From Phycisphaerales bacterium (GTDB lineage: Bacteria; Planctomycetota; Phycisphaerae; Sedimentisphaerales; Anaerobacaceae): a stretch of 33,000 bases of DNA. The notes beneath the pieces are model-generated. The model was not told the DNA's origin, ran no database searches, and saw only the letters and a program-made list of their open reading frames with translations. This document shows, in pieces, positions 7,651 to 22,359 of the stretch. Every line of letters starts with the position of its first letter. Position 1 is the stretch's first letter. The DNA lies in NCBI GenBank assembly GCA_020352515.1, contig CP070678.1:1398911-1431910 (forward strand), given 5' to 3'. The position numbers were made by a program, and so were the translations under genes.

Positions 7651-8607
7651 TCAGGTTTTGGTGAAGCGTCGTGTGAATTGTGCGTCCTCGCCGGGCTGGT
7701 CGGAGTATTTGTCGTAGATTCCGATGATGACGGCGTCGTTCGGCTTTATGGATTCGAAGGTCTGGCGGAAGGCGTTTTCGACCCACTGCTTTCGCTCTGA
7801 GAGCCGGCCGGCCGCGAGAATCTTGAACGCCAGGCAGGGGCGGCGTGTCTGCTGCATGGCCTTGAACATTCGGGGCGGGTCTTCGGCCAGATAGACCTCT
7901 CCCACGGGCAGCGGGACGCGGCCGAGCAGCCTTTTGAGCTCGTCGGCGGAGCGGTGCCGCTCGTACACGCAGGTCATGTAGTAGTCGATGTCCCAGCCTT
8001 TTGATTCGACCGCATCGACGACGTCGGGCATGTGTGTCGAGAGGCCGACCATCAGGCCGGCATCGCGGACTCGCTTGAGGAAGTCGTGCGCCTCGTCGAG
8101 CCGGCCGGACTTGAAGAGCCCGTCGGTGACTTCACCGTGATGGGCGATGCCGATTGCGCCGGCCTCGGTCAGCGGGGCGATATCAGCGGGGTCGGAGTTG
8201 ATGGAGATGTAGTGCATCTTGACGCCGCTTTCTACGAGCCGGCGGTAGAGCTTGTAGCGGTCGGACCCGGCCTGCCAGCAGTTTATGCCGACCCGAAAGC
8301 AGTGGGTGAGGGTCTTGAGAACCTGCTCCTGCGTGTAATATTCCTTCATCTGCCGGTTGACGAACCGCGACAGGTGCGAGCCGCCGTTGAATGGGTTGGC
8401 GCCGCAGATAAGGCGCGAGAGCGAGTATCTGCCGAACTTGATTTGCGGCAGGGCGGTCGCGGCTGCGCGCGCGGCTGGCCCTGCAACGCCGCGGGCGGCT
8501 ATTGTGGCCAGCGGCAGCGCGCCGAGGGCTTTGAGCAATTCCCGGCGGGAGGGGCCGGCAGAACTCTGGTGGTTGTTTTGCAGGGAGCGGCGATTCGGGT
8601 TCGACAT
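7651..8607 (-). CDS. Tat-exported aldo/keto-reductase-like TIM-barrel protein
   Basis: This 318-residue protein has a twin-arginine signal (SRRELLKALG at residues 20-29, then a hydrophobic Ala-rich stretch), so it is probably exported folded to the periplasm. The body has the layout of an aldo/keto-reductase barrel: a GRYSLSRLICGANPFNGG start, GINCWQAGSDRY where the family usually has its active-site Asp/Tyr region, and VGLSTH. The usual Tyr of the catalytic tetrad is not evident, so redox activity is uncertain. GGAGG lies just before the ATG. It has its own promoter 92 bases upstream and follows a Gfo/Idh/MocA gene on the same strand, a common planctomycete pairing in sugar catabolism. Confidence 0.8.
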   Translation of the reverse strand: MSNPNRRSLQNNHQSSAGPSRRELLKALGALPLATIAARGVAGPAARAAATALPQIKFGRYSLSRLICGANPFNGGSHLSRFVNRQMKEYYTQEQVLKTLTHCFRVGINCWQAGSDRYKLYRRLVESGVKMHYISINSDPADIAPLTEAGAIGIAHHGEVTDGLFKSGRLDEAHDFLKRVRDAGLMVGLSTHMPDVVDAVESKGWDIDYYMTCVYERHRSADELKRLLGRVPLPVGEVYLAEDPPRMFKAMQQTRRPCLAFKILAAGRLSERKQWVENAFRQTFESIKPNDAVIIGIYDKYSDQPGEDAQFTRRFTKT

Positions 8608-8698
8608 ATTAAGCCTCCGTTGAGAATCGAGTGCAAATCGGGTTCAAATCGTCTGAAGGCCCGCGGGCGGACCCCGGCCGGCCACAGCCTTCAGGGGA

Positions 8699-8727
8699 AT
8701 TGTAAGCTCCCCGAGGAAGTTTAGCAA
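8699..8727 (-). promoter_or_regulatory. Promoter of the aldo/keto-like gene
   Basis: On the minus strand, TTGCTA (8722-8727), a 17-base spacer and TACAAT (8699-8704) lie between the MocA-family stop and the aldo/keto start. The element is partly conserved in the relic copy at 7546-7574, which supports its being functional. Confidence 0.6.
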
Positions 8728-8876
8728 TGGCCTTCTCAGACTCAAGAGCAGCACTGCGCGCATAGCAACGGCGCTCTATCCGAGCGGACACCATCGACAT
8801 TTGGGTACGCGCGAAACAGCAGCTTGAAGACGTTTACCAGCCCGCCGGTGCAGCGCCGGCAGCCCGCAACAAAGCC

Positions 8877-10268
8877 TCAGTATTCGCGGTCTTTGACGAT
8901 GCCCGGCTGCGGAACGGGATACCTGCCCTCGGCGTCCGCCTGCAGGGGCGCCGGCGAATCCGCCGTGATCTTGTCCAGCCCCGGGGCCATCTCGTGCTCA
9001 CAGTTTAGTATCTGCTCGTACGTGATCTCCTGCCCCGTGTGTGCGGCCATGCGCCCCAGGCTTGTCACGAGGCTGGCGCGGACGCCGCGTTCGACCTCGT
9101 TATACGGCCTGTCGTTGCGGATGGCGTACACCAGGTCGTTCCATTCGTTCTGATACGGATTGCGCTCGTCCGGGCTGACTCTGGATTCCCAAATCATCTG
9201 CGCCTTGTCCGTATTCTGGCCCCTGTACGTGCTTGAGGGCATCCCGCAGTCGCCGCTCTTCGAGACGATGGCAATGCCCTTGCTGCCGTGGGCATAGCTT
9301 GAGTAAATGTCTTTGCAGCCCATGATGCAGCGCCCGTCCAGGATGAACTTGCTGCCGTCGGCGTACGTGTACTCCACCGAGTACGTATCGAAATTCTGGT
9401 CCACGTAGGTCACACCTTTGGGGCTCTGCCGGTAATGGCGGCCGCCCAGCGCATGGGCCTTGACCGGCCAGGCGTCCTTCATCCAGCACTGATGATCGAC
9501 GATGTGGATGTAGAAGTCGCTGTAGTTGCCGCCGCTGGCCCAGATGAAGCTGTGGAAGCGCTGGATCTGGTAGAGCAGGTCGCTGATGCCGGGCGGCTTT
9601 GGCAGCGAGGAGAAGAACCCGATGGGTCCGTGCATCCGGTAGCCGCGCTGCATAATGATATCGCCGATTTCGCCGTCGCGGAGGCGTTTATATAGCTGCT
9701 CGAGCGCCCGGCTGTGGCGCGACATCAGGCCCACCCCCACCTTGAGATTCTTCGCGGTTGCCTGCTCGCCGAGCTTGAACATGCGCCGGCTGGTCGGTCC
9801 ATCCACGGTGACGGGCTTTTCCATAAAGACATTCAGGCCCTTCTTGATTGCGTAGGTGAAATGCACCCAGCGGAATCCCGGAGGCGTTGCAAAGATCGCG
9901 ACATCGCCCGGGCTCAGACAGTCCATCGCATGTTTGTAGGCGTCGAAGCCAACGAACCGGCGATCCTCCGGCACGTCGACCTTCTCGGCGTGTATTTTCT
10001 TCAAATTTTCGTAGCTGCTTTTGAGGCGGTGTTCAAAAACGTCAGCCATGGCGACGAGCTTCATCGGGCCGTACTTGACCGAAAGCGCGTCCGAGGCGGC
10101 GCCGGAGCCCCGGCCGCCGCAGCCAACCAGGGCTACCTTGATGGTGTTGTCCTGGCCCGCGTAAACCCGCGGCGCAACGCCCGCTGCCAGAGCCGAGGTT
10201 GCCGCGATCTTACCGGCCTGCTTCAAAAACTCGCGACGCGACGTGCTTTTTCCAGTGATTTCACTCAT
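8877..10268 (-). CDS. Tat-exported Gfo/Idh/MocA family oxidoreductase
   Basis: This 463-residue protein starts with a Tat signal (SRREFLKQAG, residues 10-19, then an Ala-rich hydrophobic stretch ending near YAG). A Rossmann fold follows, with VALVGCGGRGSGAA near residue 45 as the NAD(P)-binding loop. The family's EKP motif (FMEKPVTVDGP) is present, as is a C-terminal alpha/beta domain with GGNYSDFYIHIVDHQ. Members oxidise or reduce sugars and sugar-like substrates, and many planctomycete members are exported like this one. The ATG has a strong AAGGAGAAGG site. It is followed on the same strand by the aldo/keto-like protein, and a decayed second copy of this unit lies beyond. The exact substrate cannot be told from the sequence. 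Confidence 0.92.
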   Translation of the reverse strand: MSEITGKSTSRREFLKQAGKIAATSALAAGVAPRVYAGQDNTIKVALVGCGGRGSGAASDALSVKYGPMKLVAMADVFEHRLKSSYENLKKIHAEKVDVPEDRRFVGFDAYKHAMDCLSPGDVAIFATPPGFRWVHFTYAIKKGLNVFMEKPVTVDGPTSRRMFKLGEQATAKNLKVGVGLMSRHSRALEQLYKRLRDGEIGDIIMQRGYRMHGPIGFFSSLPKPPGISDLLYQIQRFHSFIWASGGNYSDFYIHIVDHQCWMKDAWPVKAHALGGRHYRQSPKGVTYVDQNFDTYSVEYTYADGSKFILDGRCIMGCKDIYSSYAHGSKGIAIVSKSGDCGMPSSTYRGQNTDKAQMIWESRVSPDERNPYQNEWNDLVYAIRNDRPYNEVERGVRASLVTSLGRMAAHTGQEITYEQILNCEHEMAPGLDKITADSPAPLQADAEGRYPVPQPGIVKDREY

Positions 10269-10749
10269 TTGCCTTCTTCTCCTTCTGATTGATTCTTATT
10301 ACTAAATCCGGGTTTCTTCCGGGAGTTGCCGTTTGCTCCCGCGCCGGGTGTTGTCGGAATTCCATTGGCCACCATTATAGTCGCCGTCCGGCCCATAGCA
10401 AGGTCGTTCAGGGGTCATTTTGCGGCAACTTCGGGCTGTCTTAATGAGGTCCTGGAGAGACGACCAGACAATTTCTCACGGAATTTGAAAAAAACGAGAA
10501 TTCGTTATCAACATTTTGTTGAGGGCCTCCGCTTCTCCGATGAAGTGATATTGAGGACAGGGGGTGTTAGCACTCTTCCTGGCCGACGAATTTGGAAGTA
10601 TTACTGACTATCGGCAGGTATTCGCAAATTGAAAGGCCGCGCCCTGACACTGTGCCGGGGCACCCCAGGGGGATATCGCGACCTGGAGACCACAATAGAC
10701 GGCTTTTACGCAGCCTTGGGCAAACTTGGCATCCGTAGGAGGCTCGAAT
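10269..10749. other. Divergent intergenic region
   Basis: These 481 bases separate the minus-strand MocA gene from the plus-strand TPR/LolA-like gene. They hold the minus-strand promoter at 10374-10401, and a TATAGT on the plus strand (10376-10381) overlaps it. I see no convincing gene. A plus-strand promoter for the gene at 10750 was not found with confidence. The ribosome site AGGAGG at 10737-10742 fixes the start of that gene. Confidence 0.5.
10374..10401 (-). promoter_or_regulatory. Promoter of the Gfo/Idh/MocA gene
   Basis: On the minus strand, TTGCTA (10396-10401), a 16-base spacer and a perfect TATAAT (10374-10379) would give a leader of about 100 bases. The same TTGCTA -35 is used by the neighbouring aldo/keto-like gene, so both may be read by the same factor. 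Confidence 0.65.
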
Positions 10750-13632
10750 ATGAGTAGGTTGCACTTTCTATTCCCGGTTATCTCAGTTCTGTCGCTTTTC
10801 TGGCTGGCCGAGGGGGCGGCGGGCGATTTTTCAGCCGAGCTTGACCGAGCAGAGGACTATTTGGAGGATGAGCAGTTCGCCCGGGCCGAGCAGATTTACG
10901 GGCAGGTTCTGGCCGGGTCAACTGCGGACAGTAACGATGCGCTGAAATCACAGCGGCAGCTTGCCTATCTTTACATTGTCGCGGGAGAACAGGCGAAGGC
11001 GGGGGCGGCATTTGCCGAATTGACGGCGCGCTTCGCCGATCACCCCGGCATAGCACAGGCCGTTTGGCAGGTTGGCGGGGCATACTTCCGGACCGGCCAA
11101 TATGCCAAGGCCCGTGAAATCCATCAATACAATGTAGAAAGCAACGCCGGCCGGTTTGCATTGTGGTCACAGGTGGAGATTGTCAAAACCGGCCTTCGCG
11201 CAGGCGAACACGCCGCCGCTGATGCAGCCTTTGACAAGCTCATGCTCGTTTTCTCTCAAGAGCCGACTTTGCCGAAAGAAATCTATCAGGTGGCGGACGC
11301 GTACAAAGCGGCCAAAAGGTATGACAAGGCCGACGAGCTTTATCAATATGGTCTCGACAACCAGTCGGCAGCCCACGACGCGTTTTGGGTTCAGGCGAGC
11401 CTGGCCGTCTCGAATCTCGAGCTTGGCGATGAGACCGCGGCTCAGGATGCTATTGGCGGATTGCTTGCCGGTTTTTCCGACGACGCGCGCATAGCACAAA
11501 CAGTCTATGAGCTGGCAAACCGCTATAACTCGTTCGCGCAACCCGACAAGGCCCTCCAGCTTCACCAATACAACTCAGAGCATTTTGCTGAGGATATGTA
11601 TGCGATGTGGTCGCAGGTTGAGCTCTTCAAATCCAAGATTCGGGATGGCGACGACGGGGCCGCGGACGCTGCCGTTGAAAGACTCCTGACCGTATTCTCG
11701 CAGCAGCCGACTCTGCCGAAGGAGATATATCAGATAGTCGATTCGTACAGAGAGGCCCGGAGAGATCGCAAGGCGGACGAGCTTTGCGCCTATGTCGCCG
11801 AGCACTGGCCCGAGAGCGAACAGGCGGTGCTGGCGCAGAAGGATATGGTGATCTTGCATAATGAGCTTGGGAATCAGGCCGCCGCCGAGGCTGCCCTCGA
11901 GAAGCTGCTCGGCGAGTTCTCCGAGCGTCAGGCTCTGCCGCAGGCCCTCCATGAGCTGGGGCGCTACTTTGCCGGTGCGGGCAGGCCGGAAAAGGGAGTC
12001 GAGCTTCACAAATACAATGTGGACCATTTTTCCGCGGACAGGTACGGAATGTGGTCGCAGGTGGAGACTATCTACACTCACATCCGCGACGGCAACGAGG
12101 CAAACGCGACAGCGGCCTTTGAGAAGCTTCTTACCCTATTTGCGGATGAGCCGACCCTGCCGAAGGAGATTTACCAGGTGGGGGATGAGTACGGCAAGGC
12201 AGGCAGAAGCGACAAGGCCGTCGAGCTCTACCAGTACGTTATCAACAACTGGCCCGATACCGAGCATGAAATGTGGGCAAAGACGCGCCTCGAAAGGCAG
12301 GGAATCCGTCTGCAGGACGAGACCGCTCCCGTCGCCGAGGTCGGCGAGCTTGTTGCCGACTTCAACGACCAGAGCAGCTTGCCGCAGGCCCTGTTCACGG
12401 TGGGTGAGGAGTACTATGAGAAGGCCCTCAGGCACGACCGTGAAGGCCTTGTGGACGAGTCGAGACAGGATTTTCACAAGGCAATAGGTATATGGGAGCG
12501 AATAATAACCGACCTGCCCGAAATCTCCCCGACCACAGCGGAGGCTTACTATTTCTCCGCTCGTTGCTATGAGCTGATCGGCGAATACGAGAAGGCGATA
12601 GAATACTACAGGCAGGTCACCGCAAACCTGCCCGAACCGCATCTGACCGCGCCGGCATACTACTTCTGGGCGGGCTGTCATTCTTATCTGGCTCAATACG
12701 AGCAGGCAAAAGCAGTCTGTCAGCAGCTAATGCAGAAGTATCCCGACAACGAGTTGTCGGCAAGGGCCCGCACAATCATCAGCAGGCTGGATTTGTCGAC
12801 CCTGTCACGAGAGGAGAGGGACAAGGCTATTTCGTTGTGTGCCGCCCAGCATGATAGCTGGCTCGGCATAAGGAGTATGTCGGCTCGATATACTGCCACA
12901 ATGAGTCTTTTCAAGGACGGTGAATGCGTAAAGGAATACCCCGGCTCCGGCAGCTTCGAGCTCCTGGTCACGCCGTCGAACGGCCCGATTCACCGGCAGA
13001 ATCCCGCGACCGTGCAGTTTCTCCTGTTCAACGAAACAAACGGGTATCATTACCTGGCGGACAGCATTCTCGATCCCAGGGCGTTCTTCGTCTGTTGGCC
13101 CGCAGAGCCGAATGCCTCCGCGACGGAGGTCAGGCGGGCGAAAAACCAGTTCATCGACGTGGCAAAGCTGCTCTTGAGGCCTCTGGCCGCGATGGCGGCG
13201 ACCTACAGAAACCACGTGTGGGACAACACCTACCTGACCTCAAGAAACGGCTTCTTTGCCTATCGCGGGACGCCTATCCGCCTCAGCGAGCAGGCCGAAA
13301 CGGATAGCATCTTCAACGGAGAGCCGCAATACCTGTTCGTGTTTAATTCCAGACCCGCCGAGGCCCAGTACTGGTTCAGTACCTCAACCGGCGAACTGAG
13401 GCAGATCCATCTGTTCAAGCCCGGGCATCCCGTGAGGATACTGCGTTACGAGGACTACGTCGGGGCTGAAAACGGCAACGTCAGATTCCCGAGAATATTT
13501 AGCTGCACCCTCAAGGAAAGAAACGGCCATAAGCCGAATGGCTGGGCATACGTGGTGGAGCTGCGCGATGTGAGATTGAATATAGAAATCCCGCCGGAGA
13601 GATTCGTCCCGCCGGGCGGCTCGCCTCCTTAA
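10750..13632 (+). CDS. Exported TPR super-repeat protein with LolA-like C-terminal domain
   Basis: The ATG at 10750 is chosen because AGGAGG lies just upstream (10737-10742) and a signal peptide follows at once (LHFLFPVISVLSLFWLAEGAAG); the TTG at 10726 is rejected. The 960-residue protein has TPR-like helical repeats over roughly residues 30-690. Within them a super-repeat of exactly 148 residues occurs three times: the PTLPKEIYQ motif falls at residues 172, 320 and 468. Residues about 700-950 resemble a LolA/outer-membrane lipoprotein-sorting type beta domain (SARYTATMSLF...; closing VVELRDVRLNIEIPPERF). No catalytic motif is seen. It is 105 bases upstream of the cysteine-repeat gene and may be co-transcribed with it. 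A role in binding or moving an envelope component is inference. Confidence 0.8.
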   Translation: MSRLHFLFPVISVLSLFWLAEGAAGDFSAELDRAEDYLEDEQFARAEQIYGQVLAGSTADSNDALKSQRQLAYLYIVAGEQAKAGAAFAELTARFADHPGIAQAVWQVGGAYFRTGQYAKAREIHQYNVESNAGRFALWSQVEIVKTGLRAGEHAAADAAFDKLMLVFSQEPTLPKEIYQVADAYKAAKRYDKADELYQYGLDNQSAAHDAFWVQASLAVSNLELGDETAAQDAIGGLLAGFSDDARIAQTVYELANRYNSFAQPDKALQLHQYNSEHFAEDMYAMWSQVELFKSKIRDGDDGAADAAVERLLTVFSQQPTLPKEIYQIVDSYREARRDRKADELCAYVAEHWPESEQAVLAQKDMVILHNELGNQAAAEAALEKLLGEFSERQALPQALHELGRYFAGAGRPEKGVELHKYNVDHFSADRYGMWSQVETIYTHIRDGNEANATAAFEKLLTLFADEPTLPKEIYQVGDEYGKAGRSDKAVELYQYVINNWPDTEHEMWAKTRLERQGIRLQDETAPVAEVGELVADFNDQSSLPQALFTVGEEYYEKALRHDREGLVDESRQDFHKAIGIWERIITDLPEISPTTAEAYYFSARCYELIGEYEKAIEYYRQVTANLPEPHLTAPAYYFWAGCHSYLAQYEQAKAVCQQLMQKYPDNELSARARTIISRLDLSTLSREERDKAISLCAAQHDSWLGIRSMSARYTATMSLFKDGECVKEYPGSGSFELLVTPSNGPIHRQNPATVQFLLFNETNGYHYLADSILDPRAFFVCWPAEPNASATEVRRAKNQFIDVAKLLLRPLAAMAATYRNHVWDNTYLTSRNGFFAYRGTPIRLSEQAETDSIFNGEPQYLFVFNSRPAEAQYWFSTSTGELRQIHLFKPGHPVRILRYEDYVGAENGNVRFPRIFSCTLKERNGHKPNGWAYVVELRDVRLNIEIPPERFVPPGGSPP

Positions 13633-13737: not shown

Positions 13738-15723
13738 ATGACCGAACCACGAGAACAAGGCTCTTCAGATGCTCTGTCTAAAGACGACCTCTCGAAAGAC
13801 TTGGCTGAGATCAAGAGAAACCTTATCTCCCGCCGGAAGTTCCTGAAAAGCGGCGCCGGGGGCGCGGCGCTAACCTTCCTCGGACTTGGCTTCTCCGAAA
13901 CATCTGAGCAGGAGGCTTTAGGGTGTCCATGCACCCCATGCGACTCGTGCGACGGCTGCGACTCGTGTGACGCATGCAATACCTGTAATACCGGCTGCGA
14001 GGTGAGCTGTGAAACGGGCTGTGAAGTCAGTTGTGAGACCGGTTGCGAGGTAAGCTGTGAGACCGGCTGCGAGGTAACCTGCGAGGTCGGTTGCGAGGTT
14101 AGCTGCGAAACGGGCTGTGAGGTCACCTGCGAGGTCGGCTGCGAGGTGAGCTGCGAGACCGGCTGCGAGGTGAGCTGTGAGACAGGCTGCGAGGTGACCT
14201 GCGAAGACTGCGATACATGCGAAACCACTTGTGAAGACTGTAACATATGTGACCCGTGCGAGACGTGCGAGGGCTGCGAAGTATGCGAGTACTGCGAGTA
14301 CTGTGAGTCCTGCGAGGTCTGCGAGCACTGCGAGGGCAGTTGCGATCCGTGCGACGCCGGCTGTGACAGTTGCGAGGTGTGCGAATACTGTGAAGTATGC
14401 GAATCATGTGAGACATGTGAGATGTGCGAGGGCTGCGAGGCACACTGTGAGCATTCGTGCGAATCGTGCGAGACATGCGAGACCGGCTGCGAGGTAAGCT
14501 GTGAGACGTCCTGCGAGGCCTGTGAGACTTGTGAGACGGGCTGCGAGGTCACCTGCGAATCGTCATGCGAGCGGTGCGAGCGCTGCGAGTCGGGCTGCGA
14601 GGTCAGTTGCGAAACGTCGTGCGAGTCGTGTGAGCACTGCGAGTCGGGTTGTGAGGCCAGTTGCGAGACATCGTGCGAACCTTGTGAGACCTGCGAGACG
14701 GCGTGTGAGAATTACTGTGAGACCAGTTGTGAGAGCAACTGCGAGACCGGCTGTGAGGTAAGCTGTGAGACCGGCTGTGAAGTTAGCTGCGAGACCGGTT
14801 GTGAAGTGACCTGTGAAGCGGCGTGTGAGAGTTCCTGTGAAGTCTGTGAGGTCTGTGAAACCGGCTGTGAAGTCAGTTGCGAGACGGCCTGCGAGGCATG
14901 TGAGACTTGTGAGACGGGCTGCGAGGTCAGTTGCGAATCGTCCTGTGAGTCGTGTGAGCGCTGCGAGACGGGCTGCGAGGTAACCTGCGAGTCGGCCTGC
15001 GAGGCATGTGAGCATTGCGAGTCGGGTTGCGAGGTGAGCTGCGAGTCATCCTGCGAGGCTTGTGAACGTTGCGAGACAAGCTGTGAGACGGGTTGTGAGG
15101 CAAGCTGCGAAACGTGTGAGACCGGTTGCGAGGTGAGTTGCGAGACATCCTGCGAAGCCTGCGAAACATGCGAAACGACGTGCGAGACCGGATGCGAGGT
15201 TTACTGTGAGACAAGCTGTGAGACCAACTGCGAGACCGGCTGCGAAGTAAGCTGCGAGACCGGCTGCGAAGTAAGCTGCGAGACCGCCTGCGAGGTAAGC
15301 TGTGAGACCGGCTGCGAAGTGAGCTGCGAGACCGGCTGCGAAGTGAGCTGCGAGACCGGCTGCGAGGTAAGCTGCGAGACCGGCTGCGAAGTAAGCTGCG
15401 AGACCGGCTGTGAGGTCACTTGTGAGACCTGTGATACCTGTAATGTGGATTGTGGGACGTGCGAAGTAAGCTGCGACAACATAGAGGCCGACCTGCAGGA
15501 CCCGCTAACGCCCAATACCGCCAGTGGGATCGAGTACGTTAAATTGGAGGTTTACAACAGTGGCAGCGGCCAGTGGGATGAGCTGTCCGATGTGGGGTCG
15601 TACATCACATGGGACGACCCCGACCACATTAGTGGGCATCTGAGCTATCCATTGTCAACGGATGAATCCGTGAGAATCTACTTGAGAGACAAGGCCGGCA
15701 ATGACGCGTGGTATTATTGGTAA
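13738..15723 (+). CDS. Giant Tat-exported CEx/CExx cysteine-repeat protein, candidate radical-SAM substrate
   Basis: This 661-residue protein has four parts. Residues 1-30 are a charged leader. Residues 31-37 are SRRKFLK, a canonical Tat motif, followed by a hydrophobic stretch. Residues 63-580 contain all 144 cysteines (22% of the protein). Residues 581-661 form a cysteine-free, beta-rich Ig-like domain ending DKAGNDAWYYW. Cysteines are spaced three (54 units) or four (88 units) residues apart; 126 are followed by Glu and 11 by Asp. The repeat has no Lys and few Arg, so it is extremely acidic. An eight-residue motif (CETGCEVS) and an 18-residue motif (spacing 4-4-4-3-3) recur. Synonymous codons vary freely (TGC/TGT, GAG/GAA), showing selection on the protein. 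The period-4 cysteines recall CXXX-repeat targets of radical SAM maturases, and two such maturase-like genes lie downstream. Metal binding or disulfide stapling is an alternative. I know no described protein of this size and type. Confidence 0.9.
   Translation: MTEPREQGSSDALSKDDLSKDLAEIKRNLISRRKFLKSGAGGAALTFLGLGFSETSEQEALGCPCTPCDSCDGCDSCDACNTCNTGCEVSCETGCEVSCETGCEVSCETGCEVTCEVGCEVSCETGCEVTCEVGCEVSCETGCEVSCETGCEVTCEDCDTCETTCEDCNICDPCETCEGCEVCEYCEYCESCEVCEHCEGSCDPCDAGCDSCEVCEYCEVCESCETCEMCEGCEAHCEHSCESCETCETGCEVSCETSCEACETCETGCEVTCESSCERCERCESGCEVSCETSCESCEHCESGCEASCETSCEPCETCETACENYCETSCESNCETGCEVSCETGCEVSCETGCEVTCEAACESSCEVCEVCETGCEVSCETACEACETCETGCEVSCESSCESCERCETGCEVTCESACEACEHCESGCEVSCESSCEACERCETSCETGCEASCETCETGCEVSCETSCEACETCETTCETGCEVYCETSCETNCETGCEVSCETGCEVSCETACEVSCETGCEVSCETGCEVSCETGCEVSCETGCEVSCETGCEVTCETCDTCNVDCGTCEVSCDNIEADLQDPLTPNTASGIEYVKLEVYNSGSGQWDELSDVGSYITWDDPDHISGHLSYPLSTDESVRIYLRDKAGNDAWYYW
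13924..15477 (+). repeat. In-frame cysteine repeat array (CEx/CExx), coding
   Basis: This is the DNA of residues 63-580 of the cysteine-repeat protein. The smallest units are 9 and 12 bases, combined into 24-base CETG-CEVS units and 54-base super-units. From about 15241 to 15408 seven consecutive 24-base units differ almost only at third codon positions. The 3' part therefore appears the most recently expanded. A larger block of about 30 units (protein units 55-84) recurs in similar order later (units 89-126). Confidence 0.9.
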
Positions 15724-15900
15724 TCAAACTGTTGCGTTGGAGCCCAGCTTCGTCCGGAAGGGGCGGCAAGATGCCATGAAAGGTCTTGGTAACGGCCGTG
15801 ATTTGCCTACCGTCGGCATCCGGTGTCGCAGTCACGGAAGCTGCGGGACGAAAGTCTTTGTGCGGGCGTTTTAGATTGTGAATTCGTAGGAGATGACGTT

Positions 15901-17253
15901 ATGTTCTCGAAGAACCTTACAATATCGACCGCGGCCGCGATAGTATCGCTGCTTTGCTGGGTGAACATCTGCATGTCCGCTTCACCTGCTCCGCCGGAGG
16001 CCCCGAGCAGGGCCGATATCCTTGCGGCTGTGCAGAAGGTCACAGACGACCCGAACGACCGCAAAGAGCTTGACGGCATCATCTTCTCGTTTCAGCGCCG
16101 CAGGGCCGAGCTTGCCGGCCCGGAGTTGTTCGCCGATTTCGTGTCCTATCTGAAACACAAAGATCCCCAGGTACAGTTCCTGGGGGCTATGGGGCTGGGC
16201 GAGCTGAAGAAGCCCGAAAGCGTCAAGCCTCTGTCCGATTTCATAAAGAACAAGGATTTCCGTGCCATTGACCGAGAGTTGAGGAGCCCGCGAACCGGCA
16301 CGCAGGCTGTGGCGCGCTTCTGGGATGTTCAGGCCGGTGTGGTGGCAATAAACACGCTCGCAGGGATCGGCGACCGATCCGTAACACCGATGTTGGAGTC
16401 TCTTCAGGGAATTCGATGCCTCCAGGCCGAGTGGGGCGGCTCTACCGTAGAGACGGCACTGTTGAAGCTGGGCTCGCTCCGGAGTCTGACCAGGGTATCT
16501 CCGGCTGACGACGCTCTGAAGAGAGAACGTGCGGCACGGGCGATTTACGGTATGAGAGACCCGAACGTGGTGCCGGGGCTGATGGACGCCGCCCGAGACA
16601 AGGGCGTGGCGACGGAGGTTCGTGTGGCGGCCCTGCATGCAATTGGCAGGATTGGCTCGCCCGGTGCCGCCGCCTTTCTCGCGGGATTCGTGGATGACCC
16701 GAACGCGCCAAAGGGTATCCGGCGCATGGCAGCCATTGCCGCCGGAAACACGAGAAAGAAGGCGGTCGAGCGTCCGCTTGAACGCCACGCCAAAGATCCC
16801 AATTCCGATATTCGTGCGGCCGCTTTTTGTGGCCTCGTGCTTGCTCGGCCACGGACGAATCTGGGTCGATGGTTTGCACTGCTGACGGACGCAAATGAAG
16901 ACGCCGACTTCAGGTCGGAGGTGGCAGACATGGGCTGTTCGCTCTTCCGCGGCCGTCTGCGGGAACACAGGAAAGAACTCTACGACTGTCTCGGCGCGTC
17001 CTACGCGGACGGGCGGCCCGTGGACAAAATTCGTGTGGATATCTGGACGGTTGTAAACGAACTGTTCGCAAAAGAGCCGAACGTCGTCCTGACGACCCGA
17101 TCCTCACGCGTGACGGCGGTTATGAGGGAGAAGATAAAGCGAAGAATCATCAGGGCGACCAGACTTCAAATCACCGGACAGCAACTGGAGGCCGCGGTCG
17201 ATAAGGCCGTGAACGAGCTGGTTAGTCTCTACGCGCCAAATGCTGATAAATGA
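15901..17253 (+). CDS. Exported HEAT-repeat protein
   Basis: The ATG at 15901 is preferred because AGGAG (15888-15892) is correctly spaced and a signal peptide follows (NLTISTAAAIVSLLCWVNICMS); the upstream GTG at 15823 would bury it. The 450-residue protein has HEAT-like helical repeats. One is near residues 84-112 (DPQVQFLGAMGLGELKKPESV) and others lie between about 205 and 330 (VRVAALHAIGRIGSPGAAAFL; GIRRMAAIAAGNTRKKAVE; DIRAAAFCGLVLA). Such repeats usually make scaffolds for protein binding. It lies 177 bases after the cysteine-repeat gene and 12 bases before the metalloprotein gene, with which it is probably co-transcribed. No enzymatic motif is seen. A scaffold role for the envelope product of this locus is inference. 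Confidence 0.85.
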   Translation: MFSKNLTISTAAAIVSLLCWVNICMSASPAPPEAPSRADILAAVQKVTDDPNDRKELDGIIFSFQRRRAELAGPELFADFVSYLKHKDPQVQFLGAMGLGELKKPESVKPLSDFIKNKDFRAIDRELRSPRTGTQAVARFWDVQAGVVAINTLAGIGDRSVTPMLESLQGIRCLQAEWGGSTVETALLKLGSLRSLTRVSPADDALKRERAARAIYGMRDPNVVPGLMDAARDKGVATEVRVAALHAIGRIGSPGAAAFLAGFVDDPNAPKGIRRMAAIAAGNTRKKAVERPLERHAKDPNSDIRAAAFCGLVLARPRTNLGRWFALLTDANEDADFRSEVADMGCSLFRGRLREHRKELYDCLGASYADGRPVDKIRVDIWTVVNELFAKEPNVVLTTRSSRVTAVMREKIKRRIIRATRLQITGQQLEAAVDKAVNELVSLYAPNADK

Positions 17254-17265
17254 GAGGGATTCGCT

Positions 17266-18462
17266 ATGAAGAGGTTTTCTCTATTCGTTATGTTCTTGGT
17301 TCTCGGCCTTAGCGGGGCTTTGCTCGCGTGGTCGCCGGTAAACACGCATGGGCTGATTACACATGACGCCCTGGATTTCCTGGACGCAGGTGAGTTTCCC
17401 GACCTTAAGACCTTCGAGGACGAACTCATTGTAGGCAGCAACACCGAAGCCCATAGTCCGCCGGGCGTCCCCCCGGGTGAGACAAGGTGGGAGCCGATCA
17501 AAGAAGACTGGTTCAGCAAACGGGACTGTCCCTACGGCAAGCAGTGTGCCCTTGAGTACTATGAGGAACTGTATTTTAGCCAGGCATACACGCGCATAGG
17601 CTACATCATGCACAATACTGCAGATGAGCATGTCCCCGCGCACATGGCGCGCGTCATCCACGGTCCGGGCATACATACGGACGAGATGGAGTTCCTTGCA
17701 GAGTTCAGCTATGGATTACTGCCTGGCATGTCTGATTGGCTGTTCACGGACAACCAGGGACACACATGGTCCTATTGGCTCTATGACTCTGGGGACGATG
17801 ACCGGCCTGATCCCCCCGACGATATCCCGGACAGTGGCGACACTTACCCGGACGATAACGGCCTGTCCGAGCCATACTGGGGCATTCCCGTATATGCCTT
17901 TGGCTCCTACGGATACGGCGTCTGGCCTACGGATAAGATTCCGGGCAACAGCCTCGGCCAGGACTATTTCTGGAACCAGCCCGACTATGTGCTGCTCCAG
18001 CAATGCCTGGGCGCGGCGTGGGGGTCCACGATTATCGAGCTTGCGTCGAGGTCGATGAGGTTGCCGCCGGTGGTTGCCTCACCCATAGTCCCGGGCAACT
18101 GGTTTGGGCCCAAAAGGCCCATTACGATGAAAATAACGGTGCGGGAAAATCGCAAGCCCGATGTGTACCTGCGGATAACGGTGGCGGGGGCGGCCATACG
18201 CGATGTGTATGGAAACAACATGGATGGAGGCCCCTCGTCTCACAAGGTGTTGACTCGCGTGTACTTCAGCAACAGCCTTCCGTACAAGAAACAGCTGGAG
18301 ATAAGATGGGACGGCACGATGGCGGCCGGAGGCTATCACGCTGACGGGATATACGCAATCAAATTTGAGGCCAAAGATATTGACGGCAACTGGTCCAACT
18401 GGAAAGCAGGCATAATAAAGTACGACAAGACTCCGCCGACCGCGACAAACCTCAGGAAGTAG
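17266..18462 (+). CDS. Exported zinc phospholipase C / S1-P1 nuclease-like metalloprotein with Ig-like tail
   Basis: The 398-residue protein has a Sec signal whose likely cut after Ala21 would leave Trp22 as the mature N-terminus. This is the metal-ligand position in the phospholipase C/S1-P1 nuclease fold. His28 and His33 follow. The family motif HxxxDxxxPxH is complete at His116, Asp120, Pro124 and His126, followed by His132, His137 and Glu140/142 as further possible ligands. The middle has an acidic Asp/Pro-rich insertion (about residues 180-210). The C-terminal 110 residues look like an Ig/FlgD-type beta domain (WDGTMAAGGYHADGIYAIKFEAKD). Hydrolysis of a phosphoester is expected from the fold; the substrate is unknown. 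It is 12 bases after the HEAT gene, forming one operon. Confidence 0.8.
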   Translation: MKRFSLFVMFLVLGLSGALLAWSPVNTHGLITHDALDFLDAGEFPDLKTFEDELIVGSNTEAHSPPGVPPGETRWEPIKEDWFSKRDCPYGKQCALEYYEELYFSQAYTRIGYIMHNTADEHVPAHMARVIHGPGIHTDEMEFLAEFSYGLLPGMSDWLFTDNQGHTWSYWLYDSGDDDRPDPPDDIPDSGDTYPDDNGLSEPYWGIPVYAFGSYGYGVWPTDKIPGNSLGQDYFWNQPDYVLLQQCLGAAWGSTIIELASRSMRLPPVVASPIVPGNWFGPKRPITMKITVRENRKPDVYLRITVAGAAIRDVYGNNMDGGPSSHKVLTRVYFSNSLPYKKQLEIRWDGTMAAGGYHADGIYAIKFEAKDIDGNWSNWKAGIIKYDKTPPTATNLRK

Positions 18463-18479
18463 CCGTTGGCCCTGAAGGC

Positions 18480-18508
18480 ATGGAACGTCCGCGGGCCTCG
18501 TGTATAAT
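18480..18508 (+). promoter_or_regulatory. Promoter of the radical SAM maturase gene
   Basis: ATGGAA (18480-18485), a 17-base spacer and a perfect TATAAT (18503-18508) lie 60 bases before the start at 18570. The -35 shares the core TGGAA with the promoter of the next maturase gene. Confidence 0.55.
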
Positions 18509-18569
18509 AGTTGCGGCCCGGCTCAGTGATGCAGACCGTGCCGCTTGATTGCCCTGATGGATAGTCACA

Positions 18570-19979
18570 ATGCCTCAGAATACCCAAACGAAGAAGACAA
18601 TTGAAGATATGCCTGTCACGTCCATGGACCTGGATATGACCAATAATTGCGTGTTGGCGTGCGATTATTGTTTCAGAGGCAAAAAGAACAAGCGTAGATT
18701 GAGCTGGGAGGTCGGCGCCAGGGCCATCGAGTGGCTGCTGGAGGAATCACGGGACAAAAAGAGCGTATCTGTGGCCCTTTTCGGCGGCGAGCCTTTGATG
18801 GAATTTGCACTTATCAAGAGGCTGGTCCCCTATGCCGAGCAGCAAGCCGCGAGGCGCGGCAAGAAAATTCACTTCAGCGCCACGACCAACTGCGTGCTGA
18901 TCAACGATGAGATGATAGACTTCTTCCGTCAGCACGGAATGACATTTCACACTTCAATCGACGGCGGCCCTGAGACCCACGACAAACATCGCCATTTCGC
19001 CGACGGGCGCGGCACGTCCGCAATAATAGCCCCCATAATAAGGAAGATACTGCAGCACTGGCCGAACCGGACCGCCCGGATGAGCGTGAGCAACGACACG
19101 GTTCACAACTGGATGGAGGATGTGCTGTACCTGGTCGACCTCGGCTACAAGAATCTGGCCATGATTCTCATTCCGGAGCTCGACTGGACAGAGGAGCAAT
19201 GGGAAATACTGAGGCGCCAGCTCAGGAAGATATCCGACTACTTTGTAGAACGATACCGGCAGGGCGACCCCATATACATCAAGCACATTGACAATGCTCT
19301 GAAGGGAATCGTCAACCCGTCAAAGCGAAAAAGCCACTGCGGTGCGGGCAGGGGCTACGTTCTTGTCAAAACCGATGGGGCGATATATCCGTGTCACAGG
19401 TTCGGAGGAGATATAGACGCAGAATCGGGCGGGCAATGGAGATTGGGCTCCATTTTCGAAGGATGGGATAGAGAAAAGCGAAAAGCACTTCTCAACTATG
19501 ACTGCAGGTCCGACGTCCAGGCCGATTGCGAGAACTGCCTCGCCGTCAACACGTGCGGCGTCTCGTGCATAGCCGTGAACTGGGCATGCTTCAAGAACAT
19601 ATACAAGCCCCACCCGAACCACTGCAGGGTTTACAACATGTATTTTGTCGAAGCGATGCGCATTCACTATATTCTCGAACGTGAGAATAACGAGCTGTTC
19701 ATGAGCAAGTATCACCCTGACAGGGTCAAGAATCGCCGGCCCGTCCGGGCAGGTCACCACGCTCGACCCGGCGCCCGCATTCGGAGACCGGGTGCAAAGG
19801 CCGTCGGCGCCGGCAGCGCGCCAATTCACCACAAGGATTTCGGCAGAATTCTTCAACAGCCCGCTCCGGGCCGCACGTCGCTCACCGAGACGGCATGCAA
19901 ACGGAAATCAGGGCGGCCGCATTCTACCTACCGCCGGGGCCGGTTTGCCGTGCGTCAAGAAAACGTCACTCCCGGCTGA
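18570..19979 (+). CDS. Radical SAM/SPASM peptide maturase (CXXX-repeat or anSME type)
   Basis: The 469-residue cytoplasmic enzyme has the radical SAM cluster motif CxxxCxxC at Cys27, Cys31 and Cys34 (NNCVLACDYCF). The SAM-binding GGEP lies near residues 72-75 (LFGGEPLMEF). A full SPASM domain follows: Cys257, Cys275, then Cx2Cx5Cx3C at 320, 323, 329 and 333, and Cys352. SPASM proteins of this kind carry two auxiliary 4Fe-4S clusters and modify peptides, often forming thioether or carbon-carbon links. The last 86 residues (384-469) are an unusual Arg-rich tail with about 21 basic and 3 acidic residues. No RiPP leader-binding domain is seen ahead of the cluster. The likely substrate is the acidic cysteine-repeat protein three genes upstream; this is inference from context. 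Confidence 0.9.
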   Translation: MPQNTQTKKTIEDMPVTSMDLDMTNNCVLACDYCFRGKKNKRRLSWEVGARAIEWLLEESRDKKSVSVALFGGEPLMEFALIKRLVPYAEQQAARRGKKIHFSATTNCVLINDEMIDFFRQHGMTFHTSIDGGPETHDKHRHFADGRGTSAIIAPIIRKILQHWPNRTARMSVSNDTVHNWMEDVLYLVDLGYKNLAMILIPELDWTEEQWEILRRQLRKISDYFVERYRQGDPIYIKHIDNALKGIVNPSKRKSHCGAGRGYVLVKTDGAIYPCHRFGGDIDAESGGQWRLGSIFEGWDREKRKALLNYDCRSDVQADCENCLAVNTCGVSCIAVNWACFKNIYKPHPNHCRVYNMYFVEAMRIHYILERENNELFMSKYHPDRVKNRRPVRAGHHARPGARIRRPGAKAVGAGSAPIHHKDFGRILQQPAPGRTSLTETACKRKSGRPHSTYRRGRFAVRQENVTPG

Positions 19980-20023
19980 ATCCCTCCTTTCTGCAAGAAG
20001 CTGGTTCATCCGGTTTCAAGCGC

Positions 20024-20051
20024 TTGGAAATCGTCGAATGTCTGGTATAAT
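20024..20051 (+). promoter_or_regulatory. Promoter of the twin-SPASM maturase gene
   Basis: TTGGAA (20024-20029), a 16-base spacer and a perfect TATAAT (20046-20051) would give a short leader of about 25 bases before the ATG at 20083. Confidence 0.65.
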
Positions 20052-20082
20052 CTGGTAGAAATAGAATCTCAGAGAACAGGTA

Positions 20083-22359
20083 ATGCGCCCAGGTATCGAC
20101 AAACACAAGCTGGCCCGGAACATAATCGTGCTGCAGGGAAAACGCGGGGATGTTGTTGTGGGCAACGGTGACGATTTCCGCTTTTTGCATTTCGAGCGGG
20201 GCCGGGCATTTCTCAAGGCGCTTGATACGGCCGTACGACAGGGAAAACTCTCGGTCGACAGGCGGCTCTTGGAATTGCTCAGCACGCACAGAATCGTCGT
20301 GGCGGGCAAGTCGGCTGTAAAGAAGCCGCCCAACGGGACAAGTCTCTGCTCTGGCACGATGGTTGAGCAGACCCTCATACTGCCCCTTGCCGAGCGCGTG
20401 GATGAAGAGGTATATGAGAAGGCTCTGAGCTATGGGTTGGACATCGTCGAAGACAACAGCGCGCTGATGATAGGATTCCATGGCGCCGATCCGGTGTCGA
20501 GCTGGCCCTCTGTTCGCGGAATTGCCGAGGTGGCCCGCAGTAAAGCGGCAAAGTCGAGGCCGGATATCCGGCTGAAATACCGCTTCGACTCGGTCTTGAG
20601 CGAGCTTCCGGATGAAATGCCCCGTTGGATCGGTCAGAGAGACGTCACGTTCAGGATCTTCTCGCTGGCGCCGGCCGGCCTCGATGGCATAACCTCGCGC
20701 CCCGACTATGCAAGCTTCAGAGATAACATTGAGAGCCTGTGCCGTGCGGGAGCGAAGGTCTCGCTGGTGACTCCGGCCTCCCGGGACAACGTACGGGAGC
20801 TTCTGCAGATAGCCGAGCACTATGCCCGGTGGAACGGGACATTTACTTTTGAGTTTCCGGCCCTGCACAATCCGAGTCACCCGTGGCCCTATGGGGACGC
20901 GAGCGACCTGCCGGACGCCGACGAATACCTGGAGGCCCTCACAGGTGTATACAGGGCAAAACACGTGGCCCGTGATTTGCTGGTCCCGGTCAACGAGCTG
21001 CGACACAGGATAGTGAACGGAGGCTATACCGCCGCCTGCTCATGCATGTACGACCACGTGACCGCAATTGACGCCGACGGCGGCGTCTATCCCTGTGCGC
21101 CTGCTCTGGCCATTGGCGCCATGCGCATCGGGAGCGTCAGGGAAGACCCGGAGAGAGACTTGGACAGTGCTCGACAGAAATTCGATCAATTCCGAAGGAC
21201 TCTGTGGGTCAAATGCAACAAATGCCGTTGGCGCGCTCTCTGCGGCATGCACTGTCCCCTGATCGGCAAAGGCAACGGTGCCGAGCCCGCCGGATACGAC
21301 CAACGCCAAATTGACAGTTATCTCTGCAAGCCCAGACTAAGCCTTGTCAGAGGAATAATATGGGACATGGTCGGCAACGTGAGGCGAAGGCGCGCAGGGT
21401 CCGCAACGCCGCCTGCCGCTCGGGCTTCTGATCGCACGTTGCTGATAATGCTGGGCAGCGATTCAAGTTCCCTGTGCCACGAATTCAGCCTCCCCGAAAG
21501 CATGCCGAGAACCAGACTCTCGCCCAGAAGTCTGACCGACATTCTACTGCAGCCCGCCGGAGACGGCGGGCCGAAACTGCCGGTGCCTTTCTTTATTGCC
21601 GGGGACGCTGAGCCTCTTGATGTCTCCATTGCCTCAATCCTCGAAGGCGTCAGTGACCATGTCGTCCTGCCTTTGATGCCTCGGGAAAGGCAGAGGTTCC
21701 TCCGCATTGTCTTCTCTCCGCAGCAGACGGTAATAGCCGACAGCCTTGAGGCGCTCGTAGAGTACAAGAGATGCATCGCCGCCCGCCCCGTCGTCTTGCA
21801 TATCGCCCGCACGGAAATAGCACCCCTGGCTGAGCGATTGTTCTCCATAAGCCGCTTCATCGGCAAGCTCACTTTTCGCCTAAGAGACATTCATCTGCTG
21901 GAGCAAGAGGACATCACCACATACAGACTGCAACTGGAAGCTCTGTCGGGCATCGAGCCGGCCAGAGAGACGGCCGGGGCCGGCAGGCTGCTCGATGTCA
22001 CGAATCTGGATTCTTCTGCCTTGATGTCGGGACGTCTTTCGCGTTGCCCCGCCGGTTCTAAGTTTCTGCTCATAGGCCCGGACGGTCTTGTTTACCCTTG
22101 CCAGGCATTCTACCGGGCGGGCAAGAAGCACTCGCTCGGCTCCCTCAAAGACGTTGAAAAAAACCGAGTCACCCTCGCCTGGGATCAGCAAACCTGCGGA
22201 ATATGCGGCTCTCGGACTTGCCTGGGCTGCCCCTTCCTCGAATCGGAGAAGCTCGGCGGCAGGGAGAAAGCCTGTAAAGTCTATGAAGCAGAAAGACTCG
22301 TCAGGGACCAGGTTGCCAGGCGAATTGCGGATTCTCGTCAGAGACGGGCGGCCGACTAA
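20083..22359 (+). CDS. Twin-SPASM protein: degenerate radical SAM half fused to CXXX-repeat-peptide-maturase-like half
   Basis: The 758-residue protein has two halves. Residues 1-420 resemble a radical SAM/SPASM maturase. The CxxxCxxC motif is absent from the expected place (residues 94-112) and the GGEP site reads HGADP (133-137). A SPASM region remains: Cys319, 321, 338, then Cx2Cx5Cx3C at 378, 381, 387, 391 and Cys415. Residues 10-72 could be a PqqD-like leader-binding domain. Residues 450-758 are a second SPASM-type unit with Cys655, PDGLVYPCQAF (Cys673), Cx2Cx4Cx2C at 705, 708, 713, 716 and Cys731. This layout matches, from memory, the CXXX repeat peptide maturase family, which also lacks a radical SAM cluster. 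It probably works with the adjacent maturase on the cysteine-repeat protein. Its last 59 bases overlap the convergent sialidase-like gene. Confidence 0.82.
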   Translation: MRPGIDKHKLARNIIVLQGKRGDVVVGNGDDFRFLHFERGRAFLKALDTAVRQGKLSVDRRLLELLSTHRIVVAGKSAVKKPPNGTSLCSGTMVEQTLILPLAERVDEEVYEKALSYGLDIVEDNSALMIGFHGADPVSSWPSVRGIAEVARSKAAKSRPDIRLKYRFDSVLSELPDEMPRWIGQRDVTFRIFSLAPAGLDGITSRPDYASFRDNIESLCRAGAKVSLVTPASRDNVRELLQIAEHYARWNGTFTFEFPALHNPSHPWPYGDASDLPDADEYLEALTGVYRAKHVARDLLVPVNELRHRIVNGGYTAACSCMYDHVTAIDADGGVYPCAPALAIGAMRIGSVREDPERDLDSARQKFDQFRRTLWVKCNKCRWRALCGMHCPLIGKGNGAEPAGYDQRQIDSYLCKPRLSLVRGIIWDMVGNVRRRRAGSATPPAARASDRTLLIMLGSDSSSLCHEFSLPESMPRTRLSPRSLTDILLQPAGDGGPKLPVPFFIAGDAEPLDVSIASILEGVSDHVVLPLMPRERQRFLRIVFSPQQTVIADSLEALVEYKRCIAARPVVLHIARTEIAPLAERLFSISRFIGKLTFRLRDIHLLEQEDITTYRLQLEALSGIEPARETAGAGRLLDVTNLDSSALMSGRLSRCPAGSKFLLIGPDGLVYPCQAFYRAGKKHSLGSLKDVEKNRVTLAWDQQTCGICGSRTCLGCPFLESEKLGGREKACKVYEAERLVRDQVARRIADSRQRRAAD

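Follow-up and report, generated by a model that had tools for sequence, protein, structure and literature searches.

The window, as the whole 33,000-nucleotide stretch of DNA analysed here is called, contains on one strand a gene for a Cys-repeat protein, a gene for a radical SAM/SPASM enzyme (rSAM) 2.8 kb downstream of it, and a gene for a double-SPASM protein (20083-22359). The Cys gene and the rSAM gene are separated by two other genes (Table 1). A YbgF-like TPR gene, as found upstream of the Cys gene in the window, also lies near the Cys gene of a related locus (G417), which is an association only. Between positions 13400 and 22800, promoter-like and terminator-like sites were no more frequent than expected by chance. 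A defence system was considered and rejected, as PADLOC yielded only weak viperin and HEAT matches.

Table 1. Genes and features of the locus, in positions of the window
Feature	Position	Strand	Basis
TPR (YbgF-like) protein upstream of the Cys gene	10726..13632	+	model match
Cys-repeat protein, predicted substrate	13738..15723	+	661 aa, 144 Cys
Predicted Tat signal SRRKFLK, residues 30-52	13825..13893	+	by eye; PF10518 E 7e-4
CEx/CExx repeat core, residues 63-580	13924..15477	+	Cys positions
C-terminal non-repeat part, residues 581-661	15478..15720	+	beta-rich in structure model
HEAT-repeat protein between Cys gene and rSAM	15823..17253	+	PF13646 73.2 bits
398-aa protein, hydrophobic N-terminus by eye	17266..18462	+	FlgD_ig 14.0 of 27 bits only
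PapB-like radical SAM/SPASM enzyme (rSAM), predicted stapling enzyme	18570..19979	+	PF04055, NF047865, CX3CX2C
CX3CX2C motif of rSAM, residues 27-34	18648..18671	+	motif search
SPASM cysteines of rSAM, residues 257-352	19338..19625	+	by eye; conserved in alignment
N half of the double-SPASM protein, with degenerate rSAM barrel and SPASM, no CX3CX2C	20083..21402	+	
C half of the double-SPASM protein, with the second degenerate SPASM	21403..22356	+	TIGR04119, HHalign, blastp

The counts and coordinates given for the Cys-repeat protein in an earlier sequence-only reading of this DNA, namely 661 residues with 144 Cys, 137 of which are followed by Glu or Asp, were correct. All 144 Cys are located within residues 63-579. 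The residue after Cys is Glu in 126 cases, Asp in 11 and Asn in 4, and successive Cys are spaced by 4 residues in 88, by 3 in 54 and by 2 in 1 of the 143 steps. The entropy at the residue after Cys amounts to 0.74 bits, as against 2.3-2.8 bits at four other measured offsets, which identifies Cys-Glu as the conserved unit. Cys is encoded by 90 TGC and 54 TGT codons, six codons are used for Ser, and no 24-base word occurs more than three times. This variety of codons between the copies favours a coding repeat that has been maintained. An origin of the repeat by chance or as a microsatellite was ruled out by the codon variation together with the conservation of the residue after Cys.

The putative Tat signal of the protein was recognized by eye from the twin-arginine motif and the hydrophobic stretch; the scores with the two Tat models lie below their cut-offs (PF10518, 19.8 bits of 22.7; TIGR01409, 13.5 bits of 16.7). 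Residues 581-661 yielded no Pfam match at E <= 1. In the structure model, residues 80-165 form a regular 8-residue beta element (pLDDT per ten residues up to 94), whereas other copies of the same repeat are modelled as helices (about 70-87), so that the model contradicts itself. One guessed register of the strands in the part modelled as beta places Cys opposite Ser/Thr and not opposite Glu, and no support for Cys-Glu links is therefore drawn from it. A comparison of the fold revealed no viral match below E 0.001.

Membership of the rSAM in the radical SAM superfamily is indicated by PF04055 (54.7 bits, cut-off 29.5) and by the CX3CX2C motif beginning at residue 27. Seven SPASM cysteines were assigned by eye from their spacing; the Pfam SPASM model does not match the enzyme. 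The best of 74 NCBIfam models is that of PapB (NF047865), with 269.8 bits at a cut-off of 340, followed by the models of the nif11 peptide maturase, QhpD (TIGR03906, 209.8 bits of 453), the SCIFF maturase (TIGR03974, 192.2 of 425), CcpM, a ScfB-related protein and the CXXX-repeat rSAM (TIGR04115, 164.1 of 350). Since none of the curated peptide-maturase cut-offs was reached among the 25 listed of the 74 models, the enzyme is placed in none of those families; membership of the SCIFF, QhpD, CXXX-repeat and sulfatase-maturase families was each rejected on this ground. Based on the ranking, the enzyme is predicted to work most like PapB, which is also the best model for four relatives of the rSAM that were scanned. 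The nearest solved chain by sequence, 5wgg (E 6e-41), stems from a study of thioether formation. The matches begin at residues 7-24 of the rSAM but at profile positions 70-88 of the nif11, QhpD and SCIFF maturases. Judged from these alignments, the enzyme lacks the N-terminal region of these maturases, which we take to be where they hold their leader-binding domain.

The double-SPASM protein contains two SPASM stretches, and a search for the CX3CX2C motif found none in it. It is composed of two degenerate rSAM halves. TIGR04119, the model of the CXXX maturase, aligns with residues 570-721 at 49.3 bits (cut-off 150), and HHalign assigns the C half a probability of 89.3. Relatives of the C half are fused behind an rSAM in 13 of the 120 rSAM relatives listed (blastp E 7e-53 to 1e-29), and the N half stands alone in three homologues, which together link the partner to the rSAM by gene fusion. 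The structure model has a mean pLDDT of 44.7 and is confident only at residues ~96-290. No relatives of the protein were found in a scan of the genome-contig collection. Single-sequence HHalign comparison of the N half with neighbour genes gave E 0.01 at G417 and E 0.0023 at a second locus of the source genome; these similarities are weak, and conservation of the partner there is therefore not claimed.

The claim of the sequence-only reading that a complete radical SAM/SPASM enzyme is accompanied by a double-SPASM protein devoid of the radical SAM motif is thus borne out by PF04055, CX3CX2C and the SPASM stretches. Its assignment of the locus to the CXXX-repeat systems did not hold, as each of the two CXXX-repeat models stays far below cut-off on its respective protein and PapB is the nearest model. 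The model search that it had proposed, against CXXX-repeat, SCIFF and anSME models, gave scores below cut-off throughout and hence no family, but does not favour the sulfatase-maturation assignment that would have spoken against it.

Evidence on the pairing of the two genes comes from the genomes of related bacteria. The rSAM served as query against 392 genomes from the phylum and 161 from the order, and up to 20 kb were read around 20 rSAM loci from the top of the phylum and order lists; loci of a rank similar to the lower ones (G037, G076, G145, G153, G233, G279, G498) were left out at this length. The five nearest loci, all with E below 1e-60, belong to four other genomes and to the second locus of the source genome. 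At all five, the rSAM has as its immediate neighbour an ORF that combines a twin-arginine segment with a Cys repeat, whereas the same filter found such a gene at none of 15 more distant loci of the phylum (E above 1e-50). The enzymes concerned are 38% (G417, which belongs to the window's family), 37% (G259), 35% (G103), 32% (own second locus) and 31% (G066) identical to that of the window. At four of the five loci, ~45-120 bases separate the Cys gene from that of the rSAM; the two reading frames of G417 touch or overlap. The substrates of these five relatives are Cys-repeat proteins but not of the CExx type, with Asn, Ser and Asp common near Cys as judged by eye. In other collections the filter matched 1 of 80 genome-contig loci (1269 kb), none of 80 viral pattern loci, none of 8 other rSAM loci of the source genome and 9 of 78 viral rSAM loci. 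The genome-contig match is L046, where a Cys protein clearly of the Tat type is encoded at a distance of 0.8 kb from the rSAM of that locus; of the nine viral matches two were translated, and neither shows what looks like a true Tat signal. The predicted pairing of the rSAM with a Cys-repeat protein is well supported by these comparisons, as the sequence-only reading had proposed for a Tat-type substrate, and the neighbourhood survey, which it had named as a possible refutation, did not refute it.

Several further loci deserve description. The second locus of the source genome (L130:8161-9951, about G000:C1:1626160-1627950), whose rSAM is the one with 32% identity, encodes a 156-residue twin-arginine protein with 16 Cys, 45 bases from the rSAM, and on the other side of the rSAM a 509-residue protein whose SPASM match falls slightly short of the cut-off. 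In G409 (L355), a locus kept outside the counts of 5 and 15, a short Cys-rich ORF at ~7976-8209 (CAPCEKACTFCTAGSCTGC...) lies upstream of an rSAM with CX3CX2C (~8620-10113); it contains a Tat-like TRQEFL with no true twin arginine and is possibly a minimal form of the system. Two records that are not named as planctomycetes encode Cys-rich proteins adjoining a related rSAM, one with FDC repeat units (L042:8921-9796, Sumerlaeia) and one with a clear twin-arginine signal (L046:8657-9217). A scan of the genome-contig collection for the rSAM family matched at least 80 loci; the 80 considered are mostly from Clostridia, and a SCIFF-type motif is present at 59 of them.

The giant CExx protein itself was found in none of the order's 160 other genomes; matches in three of them were short CSxG peptides or frames with stops. 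The peptides of L358:1498-1848 (G528) and L360:1279-1623 (G539), from two families of the order, comprise ~115 residues with a signal-like N-terminus, nine CSxG units and a last Cys at the end, and their genes lie beside those of two large membrane-like proteins. No rSAM of the window's family was found in the 14.0 and 19.5 kb read around them.

In a quick maximum-likelihood tree, the rSAM of the window and its five nearest relatives fall into one clade of 21 rows (SH-aLRT 99), the other 15 rows of which are database proteins, so that the genomic context was read for the window and the five. The 15 loci of the phylum without a Cys gene are placed outside this clade. Among 30 viral Cys-linked rSAMs, 18 are found in a wider clade (98) together with the window, 10 in a clade next to the rSAMs of SCIFF type, which are not part of the wider clade, and 2 at other places. 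The label "Cys-linked" requires 18 changes on the tree, compared with a mean of 30.7 after shuffling. By this measure the Cys-linked rSAMs are clustered and do not form one group, and their split placement implies that the pairing arose or was lost more than once. The gene fusions and the split position of the viral rSAMs act on the odds given below in opposite senses and leave them unchanged.

Viral contigs contain related pairs, and such pairs are thus not confined to planctomycetes. The five-unit C[EQ]xx pattern was present at at least 80 viral loci. Many of those returned are microsatellite-type repeats, and 59 of 80 fail the Cys-repeat filter, one of these 59 having an rSAM of the window's family. 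Of the 21 that pass, some are on stretches that end at the repeat and several look like microsatellites; 8 have a window-family rSAM within 3 kb. When the search proceeded from the enzyme, 142 viral stretches were found to encode rSAM relatives; 79 of the best 80 of these gave an rSAM ORF, and they formed 50 clusters at 80% identity. By the filter applied, a Cys-repeat ORF lies within 3 kb of the rSAM in 26 clusters and is absent from that distance in 24, the fractions in falling score bands being 8/9 (above 200 bits), 3/12, 9/15 and 6/14. Up to 1.5 kb from the rSAM, the density of such ORFs amounts to 19.7 per 100 kb, versus 1.3-3.1 at larger distances. Ten viral Cys-repeat proteins were scanned: that of L298 contains a Phage-tail_3 domain over the cut-off, those of L208, L223, L288, L308 and L310 gave weaker matches to tail families, and the other four gave none to such families; seven further viral Cys-repeat proteins had no Pfam match. 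Some of the viral contigs may be host DNA, and one locus filed as phage, H6, is an ordinary SCIFF locus.

Large viral Cys-repeat proteins beside a window-family rSAM are encoded at L269, L271, L199, L208, L281, L298, L223, L310 and others. A window-type rSAM is also present in the human-gut phage Phass-1 (L347:9112-10659; OQ749652.1), whose complete genome encodes suppressor tRNAs; a Cys-rich ORF follows directly if TAG is read as a residue.

In the model that we prefer, with a probability of roughly 0.6, the 144-Cys protein is the substrate of the PapB-like rSAM and becomes a giant, Tat-exported protein stapled by multiple Cys-Glu thioethers. While the protein is still in the cytoplasm, the rSAM would link the sulfur of many Cys to a side-chain carbon of a nearby Glu; export, likely by Tat, would follow. 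Tat carries folded proteins and an rSAM must work in the cytoplasm, so that export by this route fits the model, and Tat may have been chosen because it can carry folded, already modified proteins. The double-SPASM protein would hold or position the substrate. As the short N-terminus of the rSAM leaves no room for binding of a leader, the first 90 residues of the double-SPASM protein may do so. By analogy with PapB and the SCIFF enzymes, the partner of each Cys would be the acidic residue that follows the next Cys, and every link formed would lower the mass by 2 Da. Such an acidic residue occurs in 137 of the 143 steps, 50 of which are CX3[DE] and 87 CX4[DE], and the protein thus contains the CX3D/E motifs of a PapB-type substrate; the agreement with the spacings of PapB and Tte1186 is nevertheless to be regarded as arithmetic of the repeat and not as proof. 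The product would likely be a rigid, redox-inert structural, surface or matrix protein.

PapB, according to passages of PMC9413430, links Cys to the beta-carbon of Asp or the gamma-carbon of Glu in CX3D/E and accepts CXnD with n from 0 to 6 (0 and 6 only partly), forming in-line and nested links. The review PMC8172795 states, at odds with the later PMC9413430, that X3 is strictly required by PapB; it also reports that Tte1186 links Cys32 to Thr37 and that QhpD links Cys to Glu/Asp. The window system resembles PapB/freyrasin ranthipeptide maturation in its best model, in Asp/Glu 4-5 residues after Cys and in repeated in-line motifs. It differs in the score below the PapB cut-off, in the extra degenerate double-SPASM partner and in the substrate, which in the PapB system is a short peptide with six links, whereas that of the window has a Tat-like signal and 144 Cys in 661 residues. 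Its resemblance to the SCIFF systems, with the maturases Tte1186 and CteB, lies in the 192.2-bit match of the rSAM, although this stays below the cut-off. The SCIFF core CQTSCQSACKTSC in the loci read is also a repeat with Cys at every fourth residue, but one short core stands against the giant array of the window. The CXXX-repeat systems likewise have Cys mostly at every fourth residue, which applies to part of the window repeat (88 of 143 spacings are 4 and 54 are 3), and they too include a second SPASM protein that lacks the radical SAM motif; with both of their models, however, the window proteins score far below cut-off, as stated. In the case of QhpC, the gamma subunit of quinohemoprotein amine dehydrogenase, the rSAM QhpD staples a protein by Cys-Glu/Asp thioethers, as described in PMC8172795, with three links compared with a possible hundred or more in the window protein.

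The composition of the viral proteins bears on the type of bond. In the Cys ORFs beside viral rSAMs, the residue after Cys is Q in 213, E in 198, D in 143, N in 137 and T in 98 cases, and this mixture implies that Glu/Asp is not required across the family. The rSAM might therefore modify the Cys protein by another bond, either a sactionine (Cys to alpha-carbon), a link to carbons of Thr, Ser, Gln or Asn, or a change other than a thioether, such as epimerisation; in that case the role of the Glu that follows Cys would be in solubility or recognition. SCIFF enzymes, as a passage of PMC8172795 states, join Cys to Thr. Arguing against this possibility, which we consider unlikely though deserving of attention, are the Glu or Asp after 137 of the 144 Cys in the window and the use of Asp/Glu by PapB, the nearest model.

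Less probable still is an exported Cys protein that remains unmodified and forms disulfides or binds metal, with the rSAM and its partner acting on another target. The two genes that in the window separate the Cys gene from that of the rSAM would agree with such a role, as would the CSxG-repeat peptides of G528 and G539, near which no window-family rSAM lies, and genomic context was read for a minority of the 169 C[EQ]xx proteins; the genomic linkage (5/5 versus 0/15) and the viral linkage argue against it. A chance placement here of an rSAM that matures sulfatases or serves another cofactor pathway is very improbable, since its match to TIGR03942 (90.3 bits) lies far below the cut-off of 349.45 and below seven other maturase models (164-270 bits), and within its clade every genomic member with readable surroundings adjoins a Cys-repeat gene.

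If Cys-Glu stapling is accepted as the preferred reading, its significance lies in the size of the substrates. The thioether maturases described in passages of PMC9413430 and PMC8172795 act on short peptides or, in the case of QhpC, form three links; among the papers listed in the literature searches, titles and abstract openings disclosed no CXXX-repeat, phage or planctomycete version of such a system. Enzymes related to that of the window appear to be matched to proteins of ~150 to >1000 residues with tens to >100 Cys, which at the bacterial loci carry twin-arginine signals and at some viral loci show tail-family matches. Radical SAM stapling might be a general route to large ladder-linked structural proteins, with up to ~140 Cys-Glu staples in a protein that leaves the cytoplasm folded through Tat here, and with related enzyme-substrate pairs stapling tail proteins in phages, a tentative generalization that we rate at somewhat less than even odds. 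Should the links form, heavily cross-linked proteins insensitive to redox conditions could be produced by genetic encoding, and phage particles would be shown to carry a post-translational modification that is new for them.

A search for proteins with C[EQ]xx repeats gave 169 matches, a large and mostly unnamed family. Among the 120 listed, none was placed on a contig carrying P0001 or P0005, two metagenome rSAMs more than 50% identical to that of the window, and many are tagged PF27846, of which no mention was found in the literature searched. The proteins listed (P0125, P0127 and similar) include two entries under the name Bathyarchaeota and two annotated as phage tail-like. In the source genome, a region of ~16 kb (G000:C1:465968-482050) contains ten Radical_SAM matches, one of them below the cut-off.
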